Source: Hyphomicrobiales bacterium (GTDB lineage: Bacteria; Pseudomonadota; Alphaproteobacteria; Rhizobiales; Xanthobacteraceae). From it: a DNA stretch of 64,000 nucleotides. The stretch lies in the NCBI GenBank assembly GCA_003135415.1, contig PLBP01000035.1, positions 195,204 through 259,203 of the forward strand, in the 5' to 3' direction. The notes below the pieces were generated by a model, which worked only from the letters and a program-made list of their open reading frames with translations, did not search any database and had not been told where the DNA came from. The position numbers and the translations under genes are program-made. This document shows positions 4,398 to 46,645 of this stretch, piece by piece; within the stretch, counting starts at the first letter, position 1, and each line of letters starts with the position of its first letter.

Positions 4398-5603
4398 TCA
4401 GGCGACCACGCCGCGTGCTTTCAACTGCTCGATCTCAGCGGGCTTGTAACCCGCCGCACGCAGCACCTCGTCAGTGTGCTCGCCGATTTCTGGCGCGCGG
4501 CGCGGCGTCACCTTGGCGGCGCCCTCGACCCACACCGGGCTGTTGACGGTGAGCATGGTGTCGTTCTCGAACGGCACCAGCACCTCGCTCACCCGCAACT
4601 GTTTGTCGTCCGGCATGTCGTCGACGATCGCCACCACGCCGAAAACGAGGTTCGCTGCGTCGAGAATCTTTCGCCACTCCGCGAGATCCTTCTCGAGGAA
4701 CGCCTCGTCGAAGATTTCGACGAGGGTACGCGCATTGGCGTGACGGCTCTTCTTGTCGGCGAAGCGCGGATCGTTGATGAGTTCGCCGCGGCCGATGCAT
4801 TGGGAAAATACCGGCCATTGCCGCCCTTCGTTCAAGAGCGACAAAATGAGCCAGCGCCCGTCGCGGCAGCGATAATGATTGGTGAGCGCGTTCACCGCGT
4901 CCTCGCGCGGCGGGCGCGGGGGCACCTTGGCGCCGCAGAGCCGCGCCTGCACAAAGCAGCCATTCGACCACACGCCGTTCGCCATCAGGGAGGTCGTAAC
5001 CTTGCCGCCCTTACCGGTGCGCTCGCGCCGGTAGAGCGCGGTGACGATGCCGCCGAACAGCGACATGGCGGAAGCGTGGTCGCCCATGCCAGGCAGCGAA
5101 CGCGCGGGTGGCCCATTCATATCGGGGCGCATGAGGTCCATCATTCCCGAGCGACCCCACCAGGCGTTCGAGTCGAAGCCGGGCTTATTCGCTTCCTCGC
5201 CGGTCTCGCCGTAGCCGGTGAAGGAGGCGTAGATCAGCCGCTCGTTCAGCGGCGCGAGCTTCTCATGGGTCACACCAAGTCGCGCCCGCACCTCGGGCGG
5301 ATAATTGGTGATGAAGACGTCTGCCTCCGCCGCGAGCCGGTGGATCACGGCTTGACCTTCGGGCTTGGAAAGATCGAGCGCGAGGCTTTTCTTGTTGCGC
5401 GAGTCGAGCAGCCACACATAGTTGTGCGGGCTTGCCGGATAGCCGGGCATAGCGGGCAGTGCACGGTAAGGATCGCCGGCGCCCGGCTGCTCGATCTTGA
5501 TTACCTCGGCGCCGAAATCGGAGAGCACCGTCGCGGCGGCGGGCGCCGCGATGAAGGTCGCGCAATCGATGACCTTCAACCCCTCGAAGATTCGCGAGTC
5601 CAT
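4398..5603 (-). CDS. CaiB/BaiF (family III) CoA-transferase
   Basis: A 401-residue family III CoA-transferase, which moves CoA between carboxylic acids through an aspartyl-CoA intermediate. The N-terminal Rossmann-like start (LKVIDCATFIAAPAAATVLS), the GAEVIKIEQPGAGDPYR segment and the catalytic Asp region (PGMGDHASAM, about residue 172) are present, and length is normal for the family. First gene of a two-gene unit with the enoyl-CoA hydratase. The acid substrate is unknown. Confidence 0.92.
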   Translation of the reverse strand: MDSRIFEGLKVIDCATFIAAPAAATVLSDFGAEVIKIEQPGAGDPYRALPAMPGYPASPHNYVWLLDSRNKKSLALDLSKPEGQAVIHRLAAEADVFITNYPPEVRARLGVTHEKLAPLNERLIYASFTGYGETGEEANKPGFDSNAWWGRSGMMDLMRPDMNGPPARSLPGMGDHASAMSLFGGIVTALYRRERTGKGGKVTTSLMANGVWSNGCFVQARLCGAKVPPRPPREDAVNALTNHYRCRDGRWLILSLLNEGRQWPVFSQCIGRGELINDPRFADKKSRHANARTLVEIFDEAFLEKDLAEWRKILDAANLVFGVVAIVDDMPDDKQLRVSEVLVPFENDTMLTVNSPVWVEGAAKVTPRRAPEIGEHTDEVLRAAGYKPAEIEQLKARGVVA

Positions 5604-5726
5604 CCCTGCCCTTTATTTTTGCGCCGCCCGCCGCGAGCGGCGAACGTTTCGTGAGATGCCAGTGTCAATCGAACCGCGTCGCCGGTCAAATTGTCCGGTC
5701 TCGGCAGTTCACGGCATTCGATAGGC

Positions 5727-5751
5727 GGAACCCCCTGATTTTTCGCGCGTT
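5727..5751 (+). promoter_or_regulatory. Possible EcfG-type promoter at the MFS gene
   Basis: GGAAC (5727-5731), 16 bases, CGTT (5748-5751) is an exact consensus match, but the ATG at 5762 follows so closely that transcription would give a leader of only a few bases. Either the transcript is nearly leaderless or the match is coincidental. Confidence 0.35.
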
Positions 5752-5761
5752 CTCGCTGGCG

Positions 5762-7228
5762 ATGGACGCGCAACCCGCAAAGTCAGCAACCAACGTTTCT
5801 GGGCAGCCAGGCGCGATTGTCGAAACAGATATCCCTGCCCGCCTCGATCGCCTCCCTTGGGGCCGTTTTCATACCCTCGTCGTCACAGCCCTCGGCATCA
5901 CTTGGATTCTCGATGGGCTCGAAGTGACGCTTGCCGGCGCGGTGTCGGGGGCGCTCAAGGAGAGTTACGGGCTGCGGCTCACGAATAGCGAGATCGGTCT
6001 TGCGGCGAGTGCGTATCTCGCGGGGGCCGTGCTCGGCGCCGTTTTCTTCGGCTGGCTGACCGATCGCCTTGGCCGCAAGAAACTCTTTTTCGTTACGCTC
6101 ACGGTTTACTTAATCGCAACCGCCGCAACGGCCTGCTCGTGGAGTTTCTGGAGCTTCGTCCTATTTCGTTTCTTGACCGGCACCGGCATCGGCGGCGAAT
6201 ACACCGCCATCAATTCCGCGATCCAAGAACTCGTTCCGGCGCGCGTGCGTGGCTGGAGCGACCTCGTCATCAACGGCAGTTTCTGGATCGGGGCTGCGAT
6301 CGGCGCCGCCGGATCGATCGTCCTGCTTGATCAGTCGGTCATCGCGCCTACGATCGGCTGGCGCGCGGCGTTTCTGATCGGGGCGATGCTTGGTCTCGTG
6401 ATTTTCTTCATGCGGCTTTGGCTGCCGGAAAGCCCGCGCTGGCTGATGACGCATGGCCGCGCGGCGGAAGCCGAAGCGATCGTGCGCCGGATCGAAGCCA
6501 GACTCGGCGTGGATAATACCGCGAACACCGGCTTTCCGCGCATGCGCCTGCGTTCCCGGCATCACACGCCGCTTTCCGAAGTGGCCGGCACATTGTTTAA
6601 GGATTATCGCCAGCGCACCCTGGTCGGACTCGCGCTGATGACGGCGCAGGCGTTCTTCTACAACGCGATCTTTTTCACTTACGCGCTGGTGTTGACAGAT
6701 TTCTACGCCATTCCATCCGGCGAGGTCGGCTGGTATCTCCTACCTTTCGCAGCCGGAAATTTCATGGGGCCGCTTGTGCTCGGGCGATTGTTCGACGTGA
6801 TCGGACGGAAGCCCATGATCGCATTCACCTATGCGATATCCGGCCTCTTGCTTGCGGGTAGCGGTTATCTTTTCTACGCGGGCGCACTCTCGGCGATCAG
6901 TCAGACCGTGGCTTGGATGGTGATCTTCTTCTTCGCTTCGGCGGCGGCGAGTTCGGCTTACCTCACGGTCGGAGAAACCTTCCCGCTCGAGATTCGCGCG
7001 CTCGCGATCGCGTTCTTTTACGCCATCGGCACCGCGACCGGCGGTGTCGCGGGGCCATGGCTGTTCGGCCACCTGATCGACAGCGGCTCGCGCGGAAGCG
7101 TGTTCATGGGCTATCTTTTGGGATCGGCGCTGATGATCGCAGCTGCGTTCGTTGAAGCGATCTGGGGCATCGCCGCCGAGCGCAAGCCGCTCGAATCAAT
7201 CGCGCGGCCCTTGGCTCTCGCGAACTGA
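5762..7228 (+). CDS. MFS transporter, sugar/aromatic acid type
   Basis: A 488-residue inner-membrane transporter of the major facilitator superfamily with about 12 hydrophobic helices. Diagnostic motifs are GWLTDRLGRKK in the loop after helix 2, PESPRWL at the end of helix 6 and GRLFDVIGRK in the second half, the pattern of the sugar-porter and aromatic-acid symporter groups. I chose the ATG at 5762 because residues upstream of it are Arg-rich and lie in a promoter-like region. It is divergent from the CoA-transferase operon, so it may import a related acid, but this is only inference. Confidence 0.9.
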   Translation: MDAQPAKSATNVSGQPGAIVETDIPARLDRLPWGRFHTLVVTALGITWILDGLEVTLAGAVSGALKESYGLRLTNSEIGLAASAYLAGAVLGAVFFGWLTDRLGRKKLFFVTLTVYLIATAATACSWSFWSFVLFRFLTGTGIGGEYTAINSAIQELVPARVRGWSDLVINGSFWIGAAIGAAGSIVLLDQSVIAPTIGWRAAFLIGAMLGLVIFFMRLWLPESPRWLMTHGRAAEAEAIVRRIEARLGVDNTANTGFPRMRLRSRHHTPLSEVAGTLFKDYRQRTLVGLALMTAQAFFYNAIFFTYALVLTDFYAIPSGEVGWYLLPFAAGNFMGPLVLGRLFDVIGRKPMIAFTYAISGLLLAGSGYLFYAGALSAISQTVAWMVIFFFASAAASSAYLTVGETFPLEIRALAIAFFYAIGTATGGVAGPWLFGHLIDSGSRGSVFMGYLLGSALMIAAAFVEAIWGIAAERKPLESIARPLALAN

Positions 7229-39623: not shown

Positions 39624-39920
39624 TCAAACCTTGGCGGCTTCGCGGACATTGGGAAGCGCCTCCAACTGGCGAATGATGTCGGTCACATCATCGGCCGATA
39701 GACGCTTGATAGTGATGGTTACTTCTTCAAACGGCGGATCGGTCGACGGCGTCGAAATATAGCGAATGATGCGGCGAGCGCGATAACCGAGCGCGTTATT
39801 AAGCGTGTCGATCGACATTTTTCCGTTATCGACGTGCGGCCGAATATCATGCGTTTGGCTGCGGTTTTGATACCATCGTCCCAACGGTTTGATACCGGCG
39901 AGAATGATCAGAATGATGAC
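39624..39920 (-). pseudogene. MgtC/SapB-like C-terminal fragment
   Basis: About 98 codons resembling the end of an MgtC-type membrane protein: a last hydrophobic segment (VIILIILAGIKPLGRW) and a soluble ACT-like domain (EEVTITIKRLSADDVTDIIR, LEALPNVREA). The frame continues upstream past 39920, but there it is merely antisense to the MFS remnant and unlike the family. Both remnants lose their 5' parts at the same point. Confidence 0.6.
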
Positions 39921-39923
39921 GCG

Positions 39924-40220
39924 GGGTTCTGCATCGTCGGCGGGCAGATCGCCTCGAATGCGCTTGCCGCGACTTATTATCCGACGACGATGCGCTCGAG
40001 CGGCGTCGGCTGGGCGCTCGGTATCGGGCGGATCGGATCGATCGTAGGACCCTTGATCGGCGGAATCATGCTCGCCCGCCACGTAGGCGCGGAAACCCTA
40101 TTCATGGCGGCGGCGGTACCGGGGTTGTGCGCGAGCCTCGCCGCGTTCGCGCTTGCCCGCATTACGAGGCGGGACGCGGCGGCAGCGGCTTTGAGCGCAC
40201 GAACGACGCCGATCGCGTAA
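39924..40220 (+). pseudogene. MFS aromatic-acid symporter C-terminal fragment
   Basis: About 98 codons matching the last third of a PcaK-like 4-hydroxybenzoate or aromatic acid symporter: GFCIVGGQIASNALAATYYP, TTMRSSGVGWALGIGRIGSI, VGPLIGGIML and one final helix. About 300 N-terminal residues are absent; sequence upstream of 39924 is antisense to the MgtC-like remnant. No start codon lies inside the homologous part near its beginning. Confidence 0.75.
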
Positions 40221-40252: not shown

Positions 40253-41083
40253 TCAGCTCAAGATTTTGATCGCGCCATCGACCGCGGCCTGCAGAAAATC
40301 ATCGACCGCGGCCTTGCGATCCTTGGCCTTGACGATTTGGCTCGCGGGCGCGATCGCCGCCGTGAAGTCACGCGTATGCCAATGGCCGAGCTTCGGCAGC
40401 GGCGGCAGCGCAGCGGCATCCGGGTGGGGATACGGGGTCACATAATAGTAGGGCTCGTCGTAATACTCGTCTCCCGGCGACAGACCGGCATTGACCGAGC
40501 GCCCATGCTCGTCCGCGCCTTCGTCGAGGGAGATCAAGGTGGCAAGATCGAAATGGTGCGGCCAGCAGCGCACAGGCGAGGTAGGGAGCGAACGCTCGGT
40601 CATTTGTTTTCGAATTCCGTCGAGCGCCGCCTCTGCATCGGCGAACCAACCTGCAAGTTCGTGCAAGAGTCCGGTTATTTCGATGACCCCATACGGAGCG
40701 CCCTTGACGATCGCGTGCGCGGGAATTTCGTAGGGCGCCGTTTTGTCGAGCAGACGCGCGTCCATGCCTCTGGCGCCGAGTTGCTCATCGAGCCACCGCT
40801 GCACATCTTTATCCGAGCGCCCGTTCAACGGAAAAGAGCTTGTCCGCGCGCCCTCGTTGTCCAGGAACACAAACACGAGATCGTTGATCCTCAAGCCCAA
40901 TCGCGTCTCGTTTTTCATCGCGTTGGTCGCAAAGCCCATGAGCGCGTCGTTCCAGTTCATACTGGTGTGGCTGTAATCCGGCTGCGGGGGAATGAAAGCG
41001 CTGCCCACGCGTCCCAGCCATTGTGCGGCGTAATGCGCTTGCAGCCGGGCTTCGCGAAGGCGATGCCAATCCCGCTCGCTCAT
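40253..41083 (-). CDS. DUF5996-like protein
   Basis: A 276-residue soluble protein of unknown function. Recognisable features are the start region LREARLQAHYAAQWLGRVG, the phrase PQPDYSHTSMNWN, the centre PVRCWPHHFDLATLI and the acidic-aromatic stretch LSPGDEYYDEPYYYVTPYP. The conserved His pair and acidic residues could bind a metal. Single gene; convergent with the MFS remnant. Confidence 0.75.
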   Translation of the reverse strand: MSERDWHRLREARLQAHYAAQWLGRVGSAFIPPQPDYSHTSMNWNDALMGFATNAMKNETRLGLRINDLVFVFLDNEGARTSSFPLNGRSDKDVQRWLDEQLGARGMDARLLDKTAPYEIPAHAIVKGAPYGVIEITGLLHELAGWFADAEAALDGIRKQMTERSLPTSPVRCWPHHFDLATLISLDEGADEHGRSVNAGLSPGDEYYDEPYYYVTPYPHPDAAALPPLPKLGHWHTRDFTAAIAPASQIVKAKDRKAAVDDFLQAAVDGAIKILS

Positions 41084-41160
41084 AACGTCTCCCTTTTGCC
41101 CATGATCATGTAGAATCCACGGCGATTGTAACAGTAGAACGAGTGAGGCAGACTTTGGCC

Positions 41161-41367
41161 ATGGCTGCAGCGCTTTCTTTCACCATCGCACTTTATGTGG
41201 TGGCGGGTGTCGTCATCGGATTTGCCTTCGTGCTCTTCGGTGCAACGCGCATCTTTCCACATCCCGTCGGCGTGAGCCCGGGCGCGCGCATTCTTCTGCT
41301 TCCGGGCGCCATGCTGCTGTGGCCGTTGGTGCTCCGCCGCTGGCTGAAATCGCGAAAATCTCGATGA
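41161..41367 (+). CDS. Small two-helix membrane protein of redox operon
   Basis: A 68-residue inner-membrane protein with two hydrophobic segments (ALYVVAGVVIGFAFVLFG and ARILLLPGAMLLWPLVL) and a basic C-terminus. First gene of a four-gene unit; its stop overlaps the next start by four bases (ATGA). The ATG at 41161 is chosen; a GTG six codons upstream is possible. Its linkage to the ferric-reductase-like gene suggests an assembly or membrane subunit role. Function unknown. Confidence 0.75.
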   Translation: MAAALSFTIALYVVAGVVIGFAFVLFGATRIFPHPVGVSPGARILLLPGAMLLWPLVLRRWLKSRKSR

Positions 41368-41504
41368 CGCGGAAACATCGATCGGTTCACCGTCTGCTCT
41401 GGCCCGCGCTCGCCTTGACGCTCGCGATCGGCTTTGCGCTTTCGATTTACCTGCGGCCGCCGATTGCCGCCGAGCCCATTCCGGCAGCGAAGAGCCAGCA
41501 ATGA
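41364..41504 (+). CDS. 46-residue single-helix protein of redox operon
   Basis: A tiny membrane protein with a basic start (MTRKHRSVHR), one helix (LLWPALALTLAIGFALSIYL) and a Pro/Ala-rich tail. It overlaps the preceding and following genes by four bases each, which strongly supports that it is translated although it is so short. Confidence 0.75.
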   Translation: MTRKHRSVHRLLWPALALTLAIGFALSIYLRPPIAAEPIPAAKSQQ

Positions 41505-42541
41505 GCGGCGGCTATCAGGCGGTGATGTGGAACCGCGCAAAATATATCTACGACGCAATCCTGATTTTGGGCGTTGCCGCCTATATCGGCAGCTTCATCT
41601 CCATCGGCGCGCTTTTGCATCCGCCGAAAGACGCGCCGGAATGGATCGATCTCCGCGTTCGCGCCTTCGGCACCTGTGCCTTCCTGATGCTGACGGTCAT
41701 CCTCTCGATCGGGCCGCTTGCCCGCCTCGATCCGAAATTTCTTCCGCTGCTCTACAACCGCCGCCATTTCGGGGTGCTGACGTTCTTCATCGCGGCGTTT
41801 CATGCCTGGTCGATGGTGCAGTGGTTCGCGGTCCAGAATGCGCTGCCGAACCTGGTGCAGGAATTCACTGACTGGCCGAACTATCTCAAGTTCATCGGCT
41901 TCCCGTTCAAGACGCTTGGCCTCGCAGCACTTCTCATCCTGTTGTTGATGGCGGCGACGAGCCATGATTATTGGCTGAACTTCCTCGGGCCTCCGGCCTG
42001 GAAGGCACTGCACATGGCGGTCTATGTCGCCTATGGGCTCGTGGTGCTGCACGTCATGCTCGGCGCGGTGCAAACCGAACGCGGCCCTTTCATTCCGCTG
42101 CTGATCGGCGCCTCGGCCTCCGCCGTCGCTCTTTTGCATCTCCTCGCCGGCTGGCGCGAGCACGCGGGCGATCGCGGCAAGGCCGCCGCCGATGACGGCT
42201 GGCTCGCGGTCGGACCGCCGCAATCGATCCCCGATAAGGGGGCGCGCATCGTGGCGGCTCCCGGCGGCGAACGCATCGCCGTCTTCCGCGACGGCAACAC
42301 AATCGGCGCGCTCACCAATCTTTGCGCCCACCAGAATGGGCCGATCGGCGAGGGCCGCATCATCGACGGTCTCGTGACCTGCCCGTGGCACGGTTATCAA
42401 TATCAGTTGAAAAACGGCTGCGCGCCCCCGCCCTTCACCGAAAAGTTAGCGACCTACCGCGTGCGGCTCAAAAACGGCATGATAGAAGTGAATCCGCGCC
42501 CGCTCGCAGCGGGCACAGAAGCGGCAATCGAGCTGACGTAA
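41501..42541 (+). CDS. Ferric-reductase-like membrane protein with Rieske domain
   Basis: A 346-residue fusion. Residues about 15-225 hold six to seven hydrophobic helices; two contain spaced histidines (RRHFGVLTFFIAAFHAW and ALHMAVYVAYGLVVLHVM) suited to bind two b hemes as in ferric reductase or NADPH-oxidase-like domains. Residues about 235-335 form a Rieske 2Fe-2S domain, with CAH and CPWHGY separated by 16 residues. It should carry electrons across or along the membrane. The four-base overlap with the 46-residue gene and the 23-base gap to the next gene indicate one operon. Confidence 0.85.
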   Translation: MSGGYQAVMWNRAKYIYDAILILGVAAYIGSFISIGALLHPPKDAPEWIDLRVRAFGTCAFLMLTVILSIGPLARLDPKFLPLLYNRRHFGVLTFFIAAFHAWSMVQWFAVQNALPNLVQEFTDWPNYLKFIGFPFKTLGLAALLILLLMAATSHDYWLNFLGPPAWKALHMAVYVAYGLVVLHVMLGAVQTERGPFIPLLIGASASAVALLHLLAGWREHAGDRGKAAADDGWLAVGPPQSIPDKGARIVAAPGGERIAVFRDGNTIGALTNLCAHQNGPIGEGRIIDGLVTCPWHGYQYQLKNGCAPPPFTEKLATYRVRLKNGMIEVNPRPLAAGTEAAIELT

Positions 42542-42564
42542 TCAGACAACGCTGGAGCAACGCC

Positions 42565-43680
42565 ATGGCCCGGGAACCGGACTGGATCGACGTCGGCGCC
42601 GGAGAAGAGCTTTCCAAGCATTCATGCCGGCCGGTCAAATTGAAGAGCAATCCCATTGCGCTCACGTTCAAGGATGGAAAGTTCGGCGCGGTGTCGCACG
42701 CCTGCAATCACGTCGGCGGGCCGCTCGGCGAAGGTCATCTCGATGGCGACTACATCATTTGCCCCTGGCACAATTGGAAATTTCACCGCGTCACCGGCAA
42801 AGGCGAGCCCGGCTACGAGGAAGATTGCGTGCCTTCGTTCCCGGTGAAAGTCGAGAAGGGCCGCGTGCTTGTCGACGTCGCCAATCCCACCAAGCGCAAC
42901 AAGCTGCCGCACGAGCCGCATCCACTTGCCCGCAAGCCCGAGCGCGCGCCCGGTCCGCTTCGCCTCGCGGGCATATCGACCACCGCCATGGACGCTGCGC
43001 ACCCGCGTTTTTCCGGCTCCGATCATCTGCTCGGCCATGCGCTGAAAGCCGCCCAAAAAAAGGGCGCGGAGACCCGGCTGATCACATTGAATACTTTGAA
43101 GTTTCGCACCTGCGAGGGTTATTTCTCGAAGAGTCTCCGCGCCTGCACCTGGCCCTGCTCGATCACCCAGATGGATCCGAAAGATGAAATGGATCAGGTC
43201 TATGAGGCGCTCGTGCATTGGGCCGACGCCGTCATCGTCGCGACGCCGATCCGCTGGGGTGCTGCCTCCGCGCTTTATTTCAAGATGGTGGAGCGGCTGA
43301 ACTGCGTGCAGGTCGACGTCGCTTCCAAGGAGGATCAGCTGATCCGGAACAAGGTCGCGGGCTTCATCATCGTCGGCGGCCAAGACAACATCCAGGGCGT
43401 CGCGGGCTCGATGCTCGCCTTCTTCGCCGAGCTCGGCTTTTTCTTTCCGCAGTTTCCCTACGTCGCCCATTCGCGCGGCTGGTCGCACGAAGACATGGAG
43501 AACAACGTGCGGATCGTGCGCGAGTCGAAAGCGCTTGCGCAGGGCGCGGAGGCACTTGCCGAGCGCTGCCTCGATCTCGCCGGCCGGCTGATTAAAGCCC
43601 ACATACAAATGGTGCCGGTGGCCGAGCGCGGCGGGATGAAGGGCCGCCCGATCATGGCGGACCTGATGGACCGCGATTAG
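42565..43680 (+). CDS. Rieske-flavodoxin fusion oxidoreductase
   Basis: A 371-residue soluble protein. N-terminal Rieske 2Fe-2S domain (residues about 5-105; CNH, 16 residues, CPWHNW) followed by an NADPH-dependent FMN reductase or iron-sulfur flavoprotein-like domain (about 130-360; HWADAVIVATPIRWGAASAL). Three cysteines in TCEGYFSKSLRACTWPCS could ligate a cluster, as in Isf-type proteins. It probably feeds electrons to, or takes them from, the membrane protein encoded just upstream. GGAG nine bases upstream supports the ATG at 42565. Its end overlaps the convergent aldehyde dehydrogenase by four bases. Confidence 0.85.
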   Translation: MAREPDWIDVGAGEELSKHSCRPVKLKSNPIALTFKDGKFGAVSHACNHVGGPLGEGHLDGDYIICPWHNWKFHRVTGKGEPGYEEDCVPSFPVKVEKGRVLVDVANPTKRNKLPHEPHPLARKPERAPGPLRLAGISTTAMDAAHPRFSGSDHLLGHALKAAQKKGAETRLITLNTLKFRTCEGYFSKSLRACTWPCSITQMDPKDEMDQVYEALVHWADAVIVATPIRWGAASALYFKMVERLNCVQVDVASKEDQLIRNKVAGFIIVGGQDNIQGVAGSMLAFFAELGFFFPQFPYVAHSRGWSHEDMENNVRIVRESKALAQGAEALAERCLDLAGRLIKAHIQMVPVAERGGMKGRPIMADLMDRD

Positions 43681-45155
43681 TTCGGAACGGTTCTCTTCGC
43701 GTAGGGAAACCAGTCGGGCTTTCGTTCCTGCACGTAATCGAGATGCACATGCTTCGGCTCGCGGAAGGCATCTAACCCTTCGGTGCCGAGTTCCCGCCCG
43801 ATGCCGCTATGTCGCATGCCGCCGAAAGGTGCCGCGTTGTTGTCGGCGAGCGGATCGTTGATCCAGAAGCTGCCCGCTTTGATATTATCCATCGCGCGCA
43901 TCGCGAGCTCGAGGCTCTTTGTAAAAATCGTGGCGCCGAGGCCGTATTCGGAATCGTTCGCCTTCTCGATCGCTTCGTTCGCGTCCTTGACGTAGAAGAT
44001 CGAGACCACGGGGCCGAAGAGTTCCTCGGTGGTGGCGATGCCGCCGTGACGCACGCCCGAGACGACGGTCGGCTGGAAGAAGTGGCCCTTGAGGCCGTTC
44101 GGCTGGAAACGTTTTCCGCCGACGAGGAGCTTTCCCCCTTCGGAGAGTACGGTCGCGAGCTGCTTTTCCAGCTTGTCGACGGCATCGGCCGAAATCAGCG
44201 GACCCATGTCAGTCTTCGGATCCATCGGATTGCCGACATTCAACGTCTTCACGTGCTCAACCACGCGCTTGGTGAATTCCTCGGCGATCGGCTCGACCAC
44301 GTAAATGCGCTTGGACGAGGTGCAGACTTGCCCCGCGTTCAGGAGCCGCGCCCACACCGCACCGTGCACCGCGACGTCGATATCGGCGTCCTCGAAGACG
44401 AGCAGTGGATCGATGCCGCCGAGTTCGAGATTGATCTTCTTCAGCTGCGATCCCGCCACCGACGCGATGTGCTTGCCGATCGCGGTGGAACCGGTGAAGG
44501 CGATCATGTCGATGCCGGGATGGCTCAGCATCAGGCCGCCGGTGTCGCCAGCGCCGGTAATGATGTTGACGACGCCCGGCGGCAGCCCGTCATAGACTTC
44601 ACCCAGCAGGAGTCCCGAGAGCGGGTTCTGGTGCGGCGGCTTGCACACGACCGTATTGCCTGCCGCGATCGCGGGCGCGACCTTCCAGGCCATAAGCAAA
44701 AGCGGAAAATTGAACGGCGCGATGCAGCCGACGACGCCATAGGGCTCCTTGCGAATGAAATTGACCTGATGGTCCGCGCTCGGCGGCACCGTGAGCCCCA
44801 GCGCGGAGCGTCCGACCTCGGCGTAATAGTCAAAGCACTCCGCCACCCATTGCACGCAATCGACCGACTCGATCAGCGGCTTGCCGGTCTCCTGCGTCAT
44901 CAGTGTCCCGATCGCCCTTTTCTTCAACCGAATCTTGTGCGCGACTTCGTGCAGCAGCTCCGCTTTCGCAACGCCGGAAAGCCGCCACCATTCTCGCTGC
45001 GCCGCCCGCGCAGCAGCAACGGCGGCGTTGACATCGGCTTCACCGCAGGCGGGGACGCTGTCCAAGATTTCGAGTGTCGCGGGGTTGTGGACCTCGATCG
45101 CCGTATTCGATTTCGCCTCGACGAATTTTCCGTTGATCAGGATCGGTCGGACCAT
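43677..45155 (-). CDS. NAD(P)-dependent aldehyde dehydrogenase
   Basis: A 492-residue cytoplasmic aldehyde dehydrogenase. The catalytic Cys is in NAGQVCTSSKR, the general-base Glu in LELGGIDPLL, the cofactor segment is FTGSTAIGKHIA, and the early APFNFPLLLMAWK is diagnostic. GAGGGGGAG upstream supports the ATG at 45155. It lies 107 bases downstream of a DAO-type flavoprotein gene on the same strand. In the putrescine pathway PuuB and PuuC form such a pair, so an amine-derived aldehyde is a plausible substrate, but not proven. Confidence 0.93.
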   Translation of the reverse strand: MVRPILINGKFVEAKSNTAIEVHNPATLEILDSVPACGEADVNAAVAAARAAQREWWRLSGVAKAELLHEVAHKIRLKKRAIGTLMTQETGKPLIESVDCVQWVAECFDYYAEVGRSALGLTVPPSADHQVNFIRKEPYGVVGCIAPFNFPLLLMAWKVAPAIAAGNTVVCKPPHQNPLSGLLLGEVYDGLPPGVVNIITGAGDTGGLMLSHPGIDMIAFTGSTAIGKHIASVAGSQLKKINLELGGIDPLLVFEDADIDVAVHGAVWARLLNAGQVCTSSKRIYVVEPIAEEFTKRVVEHVKTLNVGNPMDPKTDMGPLISADAVDKLEKQLATVLSEGGKLLVGGKRFQPNGLKGHFFQPTVVSGVRHGGIATTEELFGPVVSIFYVKDANEAIEKANDSEYGLGATIFTKSLELAMRAMDNIKAGSFWINDPLADNNAAPFGGMRHSGIGRELGTEGLDAFREPKHVHLDYVQERKPDWFPYAKRTVPN

Positions 45156-45262
45156 TTTCAACTCCCCCTCGCCGGCAGAATTTCTTTGCGCCATCGAGCC
45201 TTTGATCATACAGCGTGTCAAGGACGCCCACGCGCGAACACGCAATCTTGCGGCCGGCGTTA

Positions 45263-46645
45263 TCAGTGCCGCGTCAACCGCTCGGCCAGCGTCTTCCCGC
45301 TCGGCGCCACACCCGTCCGCTCCGCTTTTTGATCGATCCGCCAATAGGCCTGCTGGATATAATGGACGCCGAGGTAGCGAAACGGCTCCGGCTCCCAATT
45401 CTGCGAGCGGTGGTTGACGCAAGGCAACGCCGTGAGCTCGGATTTCACACCGGTGATGAGATCGGCGAGCACGCGGCCGGACAGGTTTGTCGTCGCCACC
45501 CCATTGCCGACATAGCCGCGCGCGCTCGCGAGCCCAAGTGCCGGGTCGTACATCATGGTCGGCATGAAATCGCGCGAGCAACCGAGCGGGCCGCCCCAGG
45601 CGTGGGTAAAGCGCACGTCCTTCAGGCGCGGAAACCATTTCCGCACATTGTCCTGAAACATGCGGATTGTCGGCCCGTGCCGGTCGTATTCGTCATCGAT
45701 TTTCGAGGCGAAATGATAGGGCGCGCCGCGCCCGCCGAAAAGAATGCGCCCGTCGGCGGTCTTCGCCATGTACTCGATGGTGAGGCGGCACGAGTCGACG
45801 CACTCGCGGTTTCTCCAGCCGATCTCGGCCCAATCGGTCACGGACAACGGCTCCGTCAGCGTCATCAGCGAATAGACCGGGATCAATTGCCGGTGCAGTT
45901 GTCTCAATTGCGTGAGATAGGCTTCGCCGCAGAGCACGATCGTCTTCGCCCGGACATCGCCGCGCGTAGTGCGTAAAACCGGGCGGGCGCCCGTGATGAA
46001 ATCAGTTACTTCCGTCTGCTCGTAGATCGTGCCCCCGCGCCGCTCGACGGCGCGCGCGAGGCCGCGCACGAGCCGGCCCGGATGAATGTTCGCCGCATCC
46101 TTGTAATAGATCGCGCCCAGCACGCCTTCGATCTTCACCCGCGCATCGGTCTCCGCCTTGTCCAGCAATTGAACGCGGTCGCCGAGCCCGAGCGCTTCGA
46201 ATTCGGCATGCGCCTCACGCACCGCCGGAAATTGCTGCGGCCCGCGCGCGACCGACATGCCGCCGCCTTTGATAAAATGGATATCGATTCCTTCCGCCGC
46301 CGCGACCCGCGCGACCTCTTCGACCGACCCGGCCATGGCGCGGTAGAGTGCGATCGCCTGCTCACGCCCATAGTGGTTTGCAATCGATCCCAGGCTCGCG
46401 GGAAAGTGGGCCGTGCACCAGGAGCCGTTCCGCCCCGAGGCGCCGAAGCCTGCGATGTCCTTCTCGATGATCGCGATCTTCAAGGACGGTTGCCGCTGCA
46501 AGAGATAGTACGAGGTCCACAAGCCCGAATAGCCGGCGCCGAGAATTGCCACATCAACGTCCACGGACCCGCTCAAAGCAAGCCGCGGCACAAGATCGTC
46601 GCCGCAGGTTTCGAGCCAGTAGCTGTAGGAGGCGTAATCTTTCAT
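45263..46645 (-). CDS. DAO-family FAD oxidoreductase, PuuB-like
   Basis: A 460-residue flavoprotein of the glycine/D-amino-acid oxidase family. Rossmann motif VAILGAGYSGLWTSYYLLQ (about residues 32-50), then EKDIAGFGASGRNGSWCT; near the C-terminus HAWGGPLGCSRDFMP and ARGYVGNGVATTNLSGRVLA. It should oxidise an amine or amino acid to an imine or aldehyde. First gene of a pair with an aldehyde dehydrogenase. The precise substrate is unknown. Confidence 0.9.
   Translation of the reverse strand: MKDYASYSYWLETCGDDLVPRLALSGSVDVDVAILGAGYSGLWTSYYLLQRQPSLKIAIIEKDIAGFGASGRNGSWCTAHFPASLGSIANHYGREQAIALYRAMAGSVEEVARVAAAEGIDIHFIKGGGMSVARGPQQFPAVREAHAEFEALGLGDRVQLLDKAETDARVKIEGVLGAIYYKDAANIHPGRLVRGLARAVERRGGTIYEQTEVTDFITGARPVLRTTRGDVRAKTIVLCGEAYLTQLRQLHRQLIPVYSLMTLTEPLSVTDWAEIGWRNRECVDSCRLTIEYMAKTADGRILFGGRGAPYHFASKIDDEYDRHGPTIRMFQDNVRKWFPRLKDVRFTHAWGGPLGCSRDFMPTMMYDPALGLASARGYVGNGVATTNLSGRVLADLITGVKSELTALPCVNHRSQNWEPEPFRYLGVHYIQQAYWRIDQKAERTGVAPSGKTLAERLTRH

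Follow-up and report, generated by a model that had tools for sequence, protein, structure and literature searches.

A Rieske-containing ferric reductase-like operon in a Hyphomicrobiales bacterium as a candidate transmembrane electron-transfer module

Introduction

Transmembrane electron transfer by proteins with a ferric reductase domain (FRD) is already a known kind of process, and the operon described here, at positions 41161-43680 (+) of a 64,000-nucleotide stretch of contig PLBP01000035.1 from a Hyphomicrobiales bacterium (the window), would be a variant of it. The operon encodes two small membrane proteins (sm1 and sm2), a protein joining a ferric reductase-like membrane domain to a Rieske domain (FRD-Rieske), and an FMN reductase-type protein that carries a Rieske domain of its own (RFMN). 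A search of the open-access literature for fusions of Rieske, ferric reductase and FMN domains found a single source, Zhang et al. 2013 (PMC3591440), whose model M4 is a bacterial FRD protein with Rieske and FMN domains and in which, in the accessible sections, Rieske is listed as an electron-transfer extension. M4 resembles the window system in this combination of domains, but it is presented in those sections as a domain model, without an operon, a separate Rieske-flavoenzyme partner or small subunits. The MsrQ/YedZ proteins and the MsrQ-like systems linked to flavinylation share with FRD-Rieske a six-helix heme-type membrane protein, modular partners and, in some cases, NAD-binding parts; as far as the accessible text of the two sources goes, the latter differ in being tied to ApbE-flavinylated proteins, and neither main text contains the word Rieske (PMC8238504, PMC11334425). 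STEAP and NOX proteins have the membrane fold in common with FRD-Rieske, and STEAP also has an arginine in place of the first heme histidine, but their cytosolic extension is a flavin/NADPH dehydrogenase domain where that of FRD-Rieske is a Rieske domain.

A preliminary description of the locus held that no named system has this layout. For the operon this stands within the open-access literature searched, where no paper was found on an operon of Rieske and ferric reductase-like transmembrane proteins, on a fusion of Rieske, glutamate synthase and FMN reductase, on a Rieske domain joined to a thiamine pyruvate oxidase, or on DUF5996, the family of a neighbouring gene; PMC5676040 contains "Rieske" only as an author name in its references. 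The set of domains, in contrast, has a precedent in M4. We propose, tentatively, that the operon is a transmembrane electron-transfer module in which FRD-Rieske is the hub in the membrane at which cytosolic enzymes with a Rieske tag dock, a reading that we hold to be quite possible though short of probable.

Proteins of the operon

Open reading frame (ORF) and coordinate checks bear out the four tightly coupled genes of the preliminary description. The first, sm1 (41161-41367, +), encodes a 68-aa membrane protein with two hydrophobic segments from an ATG start, with an in-frame alternative GTG at 41143; sm2 (41364-41504, +) encodes 46 aa with one hydrophobic segment. FRD-Rieske (41501-42541, +) is 346 aa long, with a membrane domain at about residues 10-220 and a C-terminal Rieske domain at about 233-332, while RFMN (42565-43680, +) has 371 aa, with an N-terminal Rieske domain at about 7-105 and a flavodoxin-fold FMN reductase domain at about 130-345. 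Four-base ATGA overlaps join the first three genes at 41364 and 41501, and a 23-base gap lies 5' of 42565. Judged by sequence conservation the operon genes are more than chance ORFs, since relatives exist and their Rieske ligands are invariant. Pfam supports the picture of a redox module in which a flavin reductase is combined with a pair of Rieske domains and a membrane domain of the heme type: it finds no catalytic oxygenase domain in FRD-Rieske or RFMN and no oxygenase or cytochrome bc1 domain in any of the four proteins. None of them scores above the cut-off of any NCBIfam model, and sm1 and sm2 match no Pfam or NCBIfam family at E 0.1.

FRD-Rieske matches Ferric_reduct PF01794 with 44.7 bits (cut-off 28) and Rieske PF00355 with 49.5 bits (20.3), and its relatives are 45-75% identical (15 sequences). 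An alignment of 50 FRD sequences, which includes one truncated duplicate, shows no variation in the Rieske ligands C275, H277, C294 and H297 (C-x-H ... C-x2-H) or in R87, H89, H101, H155, H171, H184 and H213 (50/50 each). By their spacing, Arg87 occupies the position of the first canonical heme histidine, and H101, H171 and H184 are the equivalents of the NOX histidines 115, 209 and 222. In the accessible part of Zhang et al. 2013 (PMC3591440), an arginine replacing the first canonical histidine, with the other NOX-equivalent histidines retained, is the signature of YedZ and STEAP, and the surface-proximal heme is probably the only one that such proteins are expected to bind; for MsrQ-like proteins, the accessible part of PMC8238504 states two heme sites. 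The preliminary description had called the membrane domain ferric-reductase-like and di-heme. The domain assignments, Rieske included, hold; because Arg-type YedZ/STEAP proteins are expected to hold probably one heme, "di-heme" is kept as a possibility only.

The hydrophobic segments of FRD-Rieske are consistent with six helices, the one around H101 being missed by the hydropathy cut-off and visible in the AF2 model (pLDDT 76.2). Since the number of helices is even and the loops are basic, the predicted topology is N-in/C-in, which would place the Rieske domain in the cytosol. VIA-align superimposes the membrane part on the NOX5 membrane domain (5o0t; Z 15.2, root-mean-square deviation (rmsd) 3.9, 191 aligned) and on STEAP1 (8ucd; Z 14.8, rmsd 4.3, 196 aligned), with STEAP2/4 matching too, although helical models without a clear Foldseek match typically reach a best Z of 14. 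The NOX/STEAP match therefore leans on Pfam too, kinship-free helical models being able to score this high. The C-terminus superimposes on the Rieske ferredoxin 2de5 (Z 15.3), and the 50 matches listed by Foldseek are all Rieske-domain chains. The PF01794 score, the Arg/His pattern and the six-helix fold together place FRD-Rieske in the YedZ/STEAP branch of the ferric reductase domain superfamily. In one genome (L029/L052) FRD-Rieske lies in two frames, with a break near residue 284 within the Rieske part, either a pseudogene or an assembly error.

RFMN combines Rieske PF00355 (54.3 bits, cut-off 20.3) with FMN_red PF03358 (48.2 bits, cut-off 24), and its relatives show 54-82% identity (58 sequences), with the Rieske ligands C47, H49, C66 and H69 invariant in the alignment. 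Its AF2 model (pLDDT 88.1) contains a Rieske and a flavodoxin fold; Foldseek gives RosB (5mji) as the first flavin-domain match by E-value, followed by WrbA and azoreductases, and also finds Rieske ferredoxins. The flavodoxin fold and PF03358 are shared with the NADPH-dependent FMN reductase/WrbA/iron-sulfur flavoprotein family, and by these features RFMN fits among the NADPH-dependent FMN reductases, with use of FMN and NAD(P)H predicted. It differs from that family in its N-terminal Rieske domain and in its cysteines: across 59 sequences C183 and C194 never vary and C198 hardly does, in the spacing C183-x10-C194-x3-C198, whereas iron-sulfur flavoproteins have a compact C-x2-C-x2-C-x4-7-C motif. 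Of the earlier assignment, the Rieske and FMN reductase domains are thus retained, and an iron-sulfur flavoprotein identity is rejected on this spacing.

A conserved membrane core

FRD-Rieske was found in 18 of 385 genomes of the class and in 7 of 398 genomes of the phylum, 4 being common to both sets; the source assembly (3.0 Mb, 41 contigs) carries one copy. An sm1-like ORF lies directly upstream of FRD in 45 of the 47 distinct FRD sequences with at least 700 nt upstream, against 0/862 control ORFs, the profile having been built from the matches themselves. In other phyla sm2 is longer (170 aa in L092, for example) or joined to sm1, the kinship of the long versions being judged by eye. The reading of both small proteins as membrane proteins is supported by their hydrophobic segments, and sm1, sm2 and FRD-Rieske form the core of the system.

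A further protein, named here for its cysteines and histidines, is encoded 3' of FRD in 18 of the 20 class and phylum loci, and the remaining two carry RFMN. By eye, this Cys/His protein shows a single hydrophobic stretch close to the N-terminus; C154, H167, C170 and C174 are invariant in 13 aligned members, and the protein is probably periplasmic. Its best Pfam E-value is 0.04, it has no solved relative at E 1, and a search of 25 members of the family, among them the window genome, gave no match to it. In two planctomycetotal loci (L072:1741-3522 and L117:6267-8057) FRD-Rieske and the Cys/His protein form one chain and RFMN starts directly after, the RFMN copy in L117 being cut by the contig end; in the KSB1 locus L092 an ORF of a different kind (5083-5928) stands between the two genes. 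A stand-alone relative of the Cys/His domain (L258:1432-1944, -) lies near an ORF that we take to be SCO-like, which hints at a copper or cytochrome oxidase context. In L172 and L176 a SPASM/radical-SAM-like gene is found directly 5' of the FRD core (Pfam on the L176 copy).

Linkage to Rieske-tagged enzymes

A search of genome contigs with RFMN, of which the best 80 of 86 relatives were retained, yielded 75 full-length loci spanning Alphaproteobacteria to Acidobacteriota, Planctomycetota, Chlorobiota and Nitrososphaerota; the nearest named relatives among these 80 are Xanthobacteraceae/Hyphomicrobiales metagenome assemblies. Of the 75 full-length loci, 15 have an FRD no more than 5 kb from RFMN; for loci with 1.5 kb or more of sequence on either side the count is 14/60. 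The two share one operon in mainly alphaproteobacterial genomes and lie close together, with the Cys/His protein retained, in KSB1, Verrucomicrobiota and Planctomycetota. The FRD tree, with 50 rows, contains a clade of 19 supported at 100/99; no Cys/His protein was seen in the loci of this clade, and 15/19 have RFMN within 8 kb. The linkage label requires 4 changes on this tree, at least 3 of them forced; since these may be gains or losses, they signify repeated linkage or repeated loss and not a tally of independent gains.

Co-occurrence was examined in 80 chosen genomes, comprising 30 FRD-positive Alphaproteobacteria and 50 FRD-negative genomes, the latter with all 8 FRD-negative carriers of the pyruvate oxidase-like protein described below. 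RFMN was present in 8/30 FRD-positive and 0/50 FRD-negative genomes (Fisher p 2e-4); this and the following co-occurrence tests count related genomes as independent, one family-level test excepted. The linkage of FRD and RFMN is not due to chance.

Two other Rieske-tagged enzymes are found near FRD. Rieske-GltB (about 540 aa) joins an N-terminal Rieske domain to a Glu_synthase domain and occurs in 12/30 FRD-positive against 1/50 FRD-negative genomes (Fisher p 1.4e-5), the lone FRD-negative case (G449) being an ORF that a contig end cuts before the Rieske part; in the 80-genome sample it and RFMN occur together in no genome. Rieske-POX (about 660 aa) joins an N-terminal Rieske domain to a thiamine-diphosphate enzyme. 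Its catalytic part scores best against the pyruvate oxidase/PoxB models, though below their cut-offs, and the protein differs from PoxB-type pyruvate oxidase, which feeds quinone, in its Rieske domain. Rieske-POX is present in 14/385 class genomes (in one of them, again G449, a contig start removes the Rieske part), and 6 of these are among the 18 with FRD (Fisher p 1e-5; by family p 0.003, for an assumed total of 180 families). A tagged enzyme, RFMN counted, lies within about 8 kb of FRD in 8/20 class and phylum loci, and at least one is present in 21/30 FRD-positive Alphaproteobacteria: RFMN in 8, Rieske-GltB in 12 and Rieske-POX only in one (G054). This pattern suggests that the Rieske domain is a docking element. 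Rieske-POX ORFs in L222, L225 and L227 carry extra N-terminal repeats, a further iron-sulfur extension that is presumably CDGSH-type, and two other long Rieske-containing ORFs (L118:6809-8776, 656 aa; L120:247-2724, 826 aa) are possibly more tagged enzymes.

The tagged enzymes are accompanied by a gene outside the four of the preliminary description. It lies divergent from the operon at 40253-41083 (-), and its product matches DUF5996 (PF19459) with 37.8 bits (cut-off 25). DUF5996-like genes adjoin RFMN (10 loci), Rieske-GltB (3) and Rieske-POX (1, and one more at a distance of 3.5 kb), counts that are biased taken alone because the loci were retrieved via the tagged enzymes. The window genome also contains a canonical DUF5996 (C27:16060-16947, E 9.5e-145), of which the window copy is a diverged relative; as the Pfam model at E 1e-8 reports the C27 copy and misses the window copy, a subfamily alignment was used to search the class genomes. 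Of its 14 matches at E <= 1e-10, 9 are strong (E <= 1e-75, a line drawn after a gap between 6e-77 and 1.5e-41 was seen). All 9 strong carriers have a tagged enzyme, 8 of them Rieske-POX and the ninth, the window genome, RFMN, whereas the five weaker genomes have no Rieske-POX. A strong DUF5996-like gene is thus found in 8/14 Rieske-POX genomes vs 1/371 others (p 2.4e-12). In G199 and G226 it and Rieske-POX lie on different contigs, so that the link is not only one of synteny. The gene follows the tagged enzymes more closely than it follows FRD, which 6/9 strong carriers possess. The window protein belongs to a diverged subfamily linked to Rieske-tagged enzymes.

Proposed mechanism

In the electron-transfer module that we propose, electrons would enter at the flavin of RFMN, supplied by NAD(P)H or some other donor in the cytosol, and reach the Rieske [2Fe-2S] cluster of the same protein. 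The Rieske cluster of FRD-Rieske, which would lie on the cytosolic side at the C-terminus, would receive them next, followed by a b-type heme within the NOX/STEAP-fold membrane domain; the final recipient would be quinone or an acceptor in the periplasm. The proteins sm1 and sm2 would be small subunits of the membrane part. In other genomes a glutamate-synthase-like or pyruvate-oxidase-like enzyme with a Rieske tag may be the soluble plug-in partner; the probably periplasmic Cys/His protein is an additional component in many relatives.

More broadly, and with somewhat less confidence, these observations may reflect a plug-and-socket scheme of respiration, in which cytosolic flavoenzymes that are unrelated to each other (FMN reductase, glutamate-synthase-like and pyruvate-oxidase-like, some with CDGSH) would each have gained a Rieske plug for one socket of FRD-Rieske with sm1 and sm2, the diverged DUF5996 protein being a shared helper and the Cys/His protein a periplasmic exit port in many lineages. 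If true, this would be a new route for cytosolic dehydrogenases into the membrane, with Rieske as an exchangeable electron plug instead of a part of an oxygenase or the bc1 complex, and it would give function hints for the DUF5996-like, sm1/sm2 and Cys/His protein families together.

Weighing the proposal

The preliminary description treated the four genes as one unit and named, as the observation that would count against it, homologues of the single genes occurring apart in most genomes. This is largely what is found, and some of these observations, with several others, weigh against the hub proposed here. Most RFMN loci (60/75) contain no FRD inside the 5-kb limit. A whole-genome FRD search of 43 genomes chosen from the 80 RFMN loci, with most loci of known adjacent FRD left out, found FRD-Rieske in 12 (5 adjacent to RFMN) and none in 31, two further matches being Rieske-only; among the 38 without an adjacent FRD, 7 have one elsewhere, in one case 8.7 kb off on the same contig. 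Of the 9 genomes of this set that bear an alphaproteobacterial title, 6 have no FRD (L047, L048, L050, L053, L057 and L061) and the other three do (L042, L060 and L062). Conversely, 22/30 FRD-positive Alphaproteobacteria have no RFMN, and 9/30 showed none of the three tagged enzymes, the Rieske-POX search having covered 8 of these 9 and not G013. Rieske-POX occurs without FRD in 8/14 genomes; in the ORFs of five such genomes, of G449 and of the G233 locus, no replacement membrane partner was recognised, by eye only. As RFMN and Rieske-POX are often present without FRD-Rieske, the tag must have another use there. The three Rieske tags form no single supported clade, the forks joining them being weak, so that shared descent does not establish a docking surface common to them; on tree evidence a single origin of the tags is neither shown nor excluded. 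Confidence in the membrane part of the FRD-Rieske model is moderate, and the helical baseline given above applies to its matches. A fixed four-gene system is rejected, RFMN and FRD each being often present without the other, and the modular view is better supported.

The same distribution could mean that RFMN is an independent soluble flavoenzyme, an NAD(P)H:quinone, azo or nitro reductase or a RosB-like flavin-handling protein, whose Rieske domain serves another soluble partner and whose place behind FRD reflects shared regulation only. The absence of FRD from most RFMN loci and from most of the chosen genomes, which range from Nitrososphaerota to Alphaproteobacteria, fits this idea, as do RosB as the closest solved flavin-domain fold and the DUF5996-like gene next to RFMN in two genomes without FRD (L047 and L057). 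We nevertheless consider it somewhat unlikely: the FRD linkage requires at least three changes on the tree, 8/8 RFMN genomes of the 80-genome sample have FRD, and two other Rieske-tagged flavoenzymes show the same FRD association.

The docking-hub proposal also assumes a direction. With a reversed or balanced one, the hub would draw electrons from quinol or the periplasm and deliver them via Rieske to cytosolic reductive enzymes such as the glutamate-synthase-like protein and the FMN reductase. The Glu_synthase domain of the GltB-like partner accords with this, that family normally consuming electrons, but other partners belong to pyruvate-oxidase-like and NAD(P)H-type families, which are natural electron donors, and we regard this direction as unlikely. 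A precedent for it is a NapH-like membrane electron module (not an FRD), which the accessible part of PMC8238504 describes as operating either towards reductases or from oxidases.

A bacterial metalloreductase or oxidase, in which electrons would exit as reduced Fe(III)/Cu(II) or superoxide, would account for NOX5 and STEAP leading the membrane-fold matches, for the PF01794 family and for the Cys/His-domain relative that adjoins the presumed SCO-like ORF in L258. It is decidedly improbable, as the tagged partners are metabolic enzymes and no iron transporter was recognised by eye among the neighbouring ORFs, for which no search was made. A variant of MsrPQ, in which FRD-Rieske would play the part of MsrQ and supply a methionine sulfoxide reductase in the periplasm while RFMN would replace the flavin reductase Fre, is very unlikely indeed, for although the Arg/His pattern of YedZ is shared, the weak match to the MsrQ model (NF003831, 45.8 bits) is far below its cut-off of 130, by which MsrQ membership is rejected, and no molybdopterin oxidoreductase was recognised by eye among the neighbouring ORFs, no search for msrP having been made.

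Neighbouring genes

An aldehyde dehydrogenase gene is convergent with the operon and ends at 43677. Its ORF (43677-45638, -) has about 170 residues before the Pfam domain and overlaps the next ORF, and its real start is probably further in. On the other side, near the DUF5996-like gene, the ORF at 39834-40220 (+), whose C-terminal half we take to resemble the tail of an MFS transporter, is perhaps a gene remnant.

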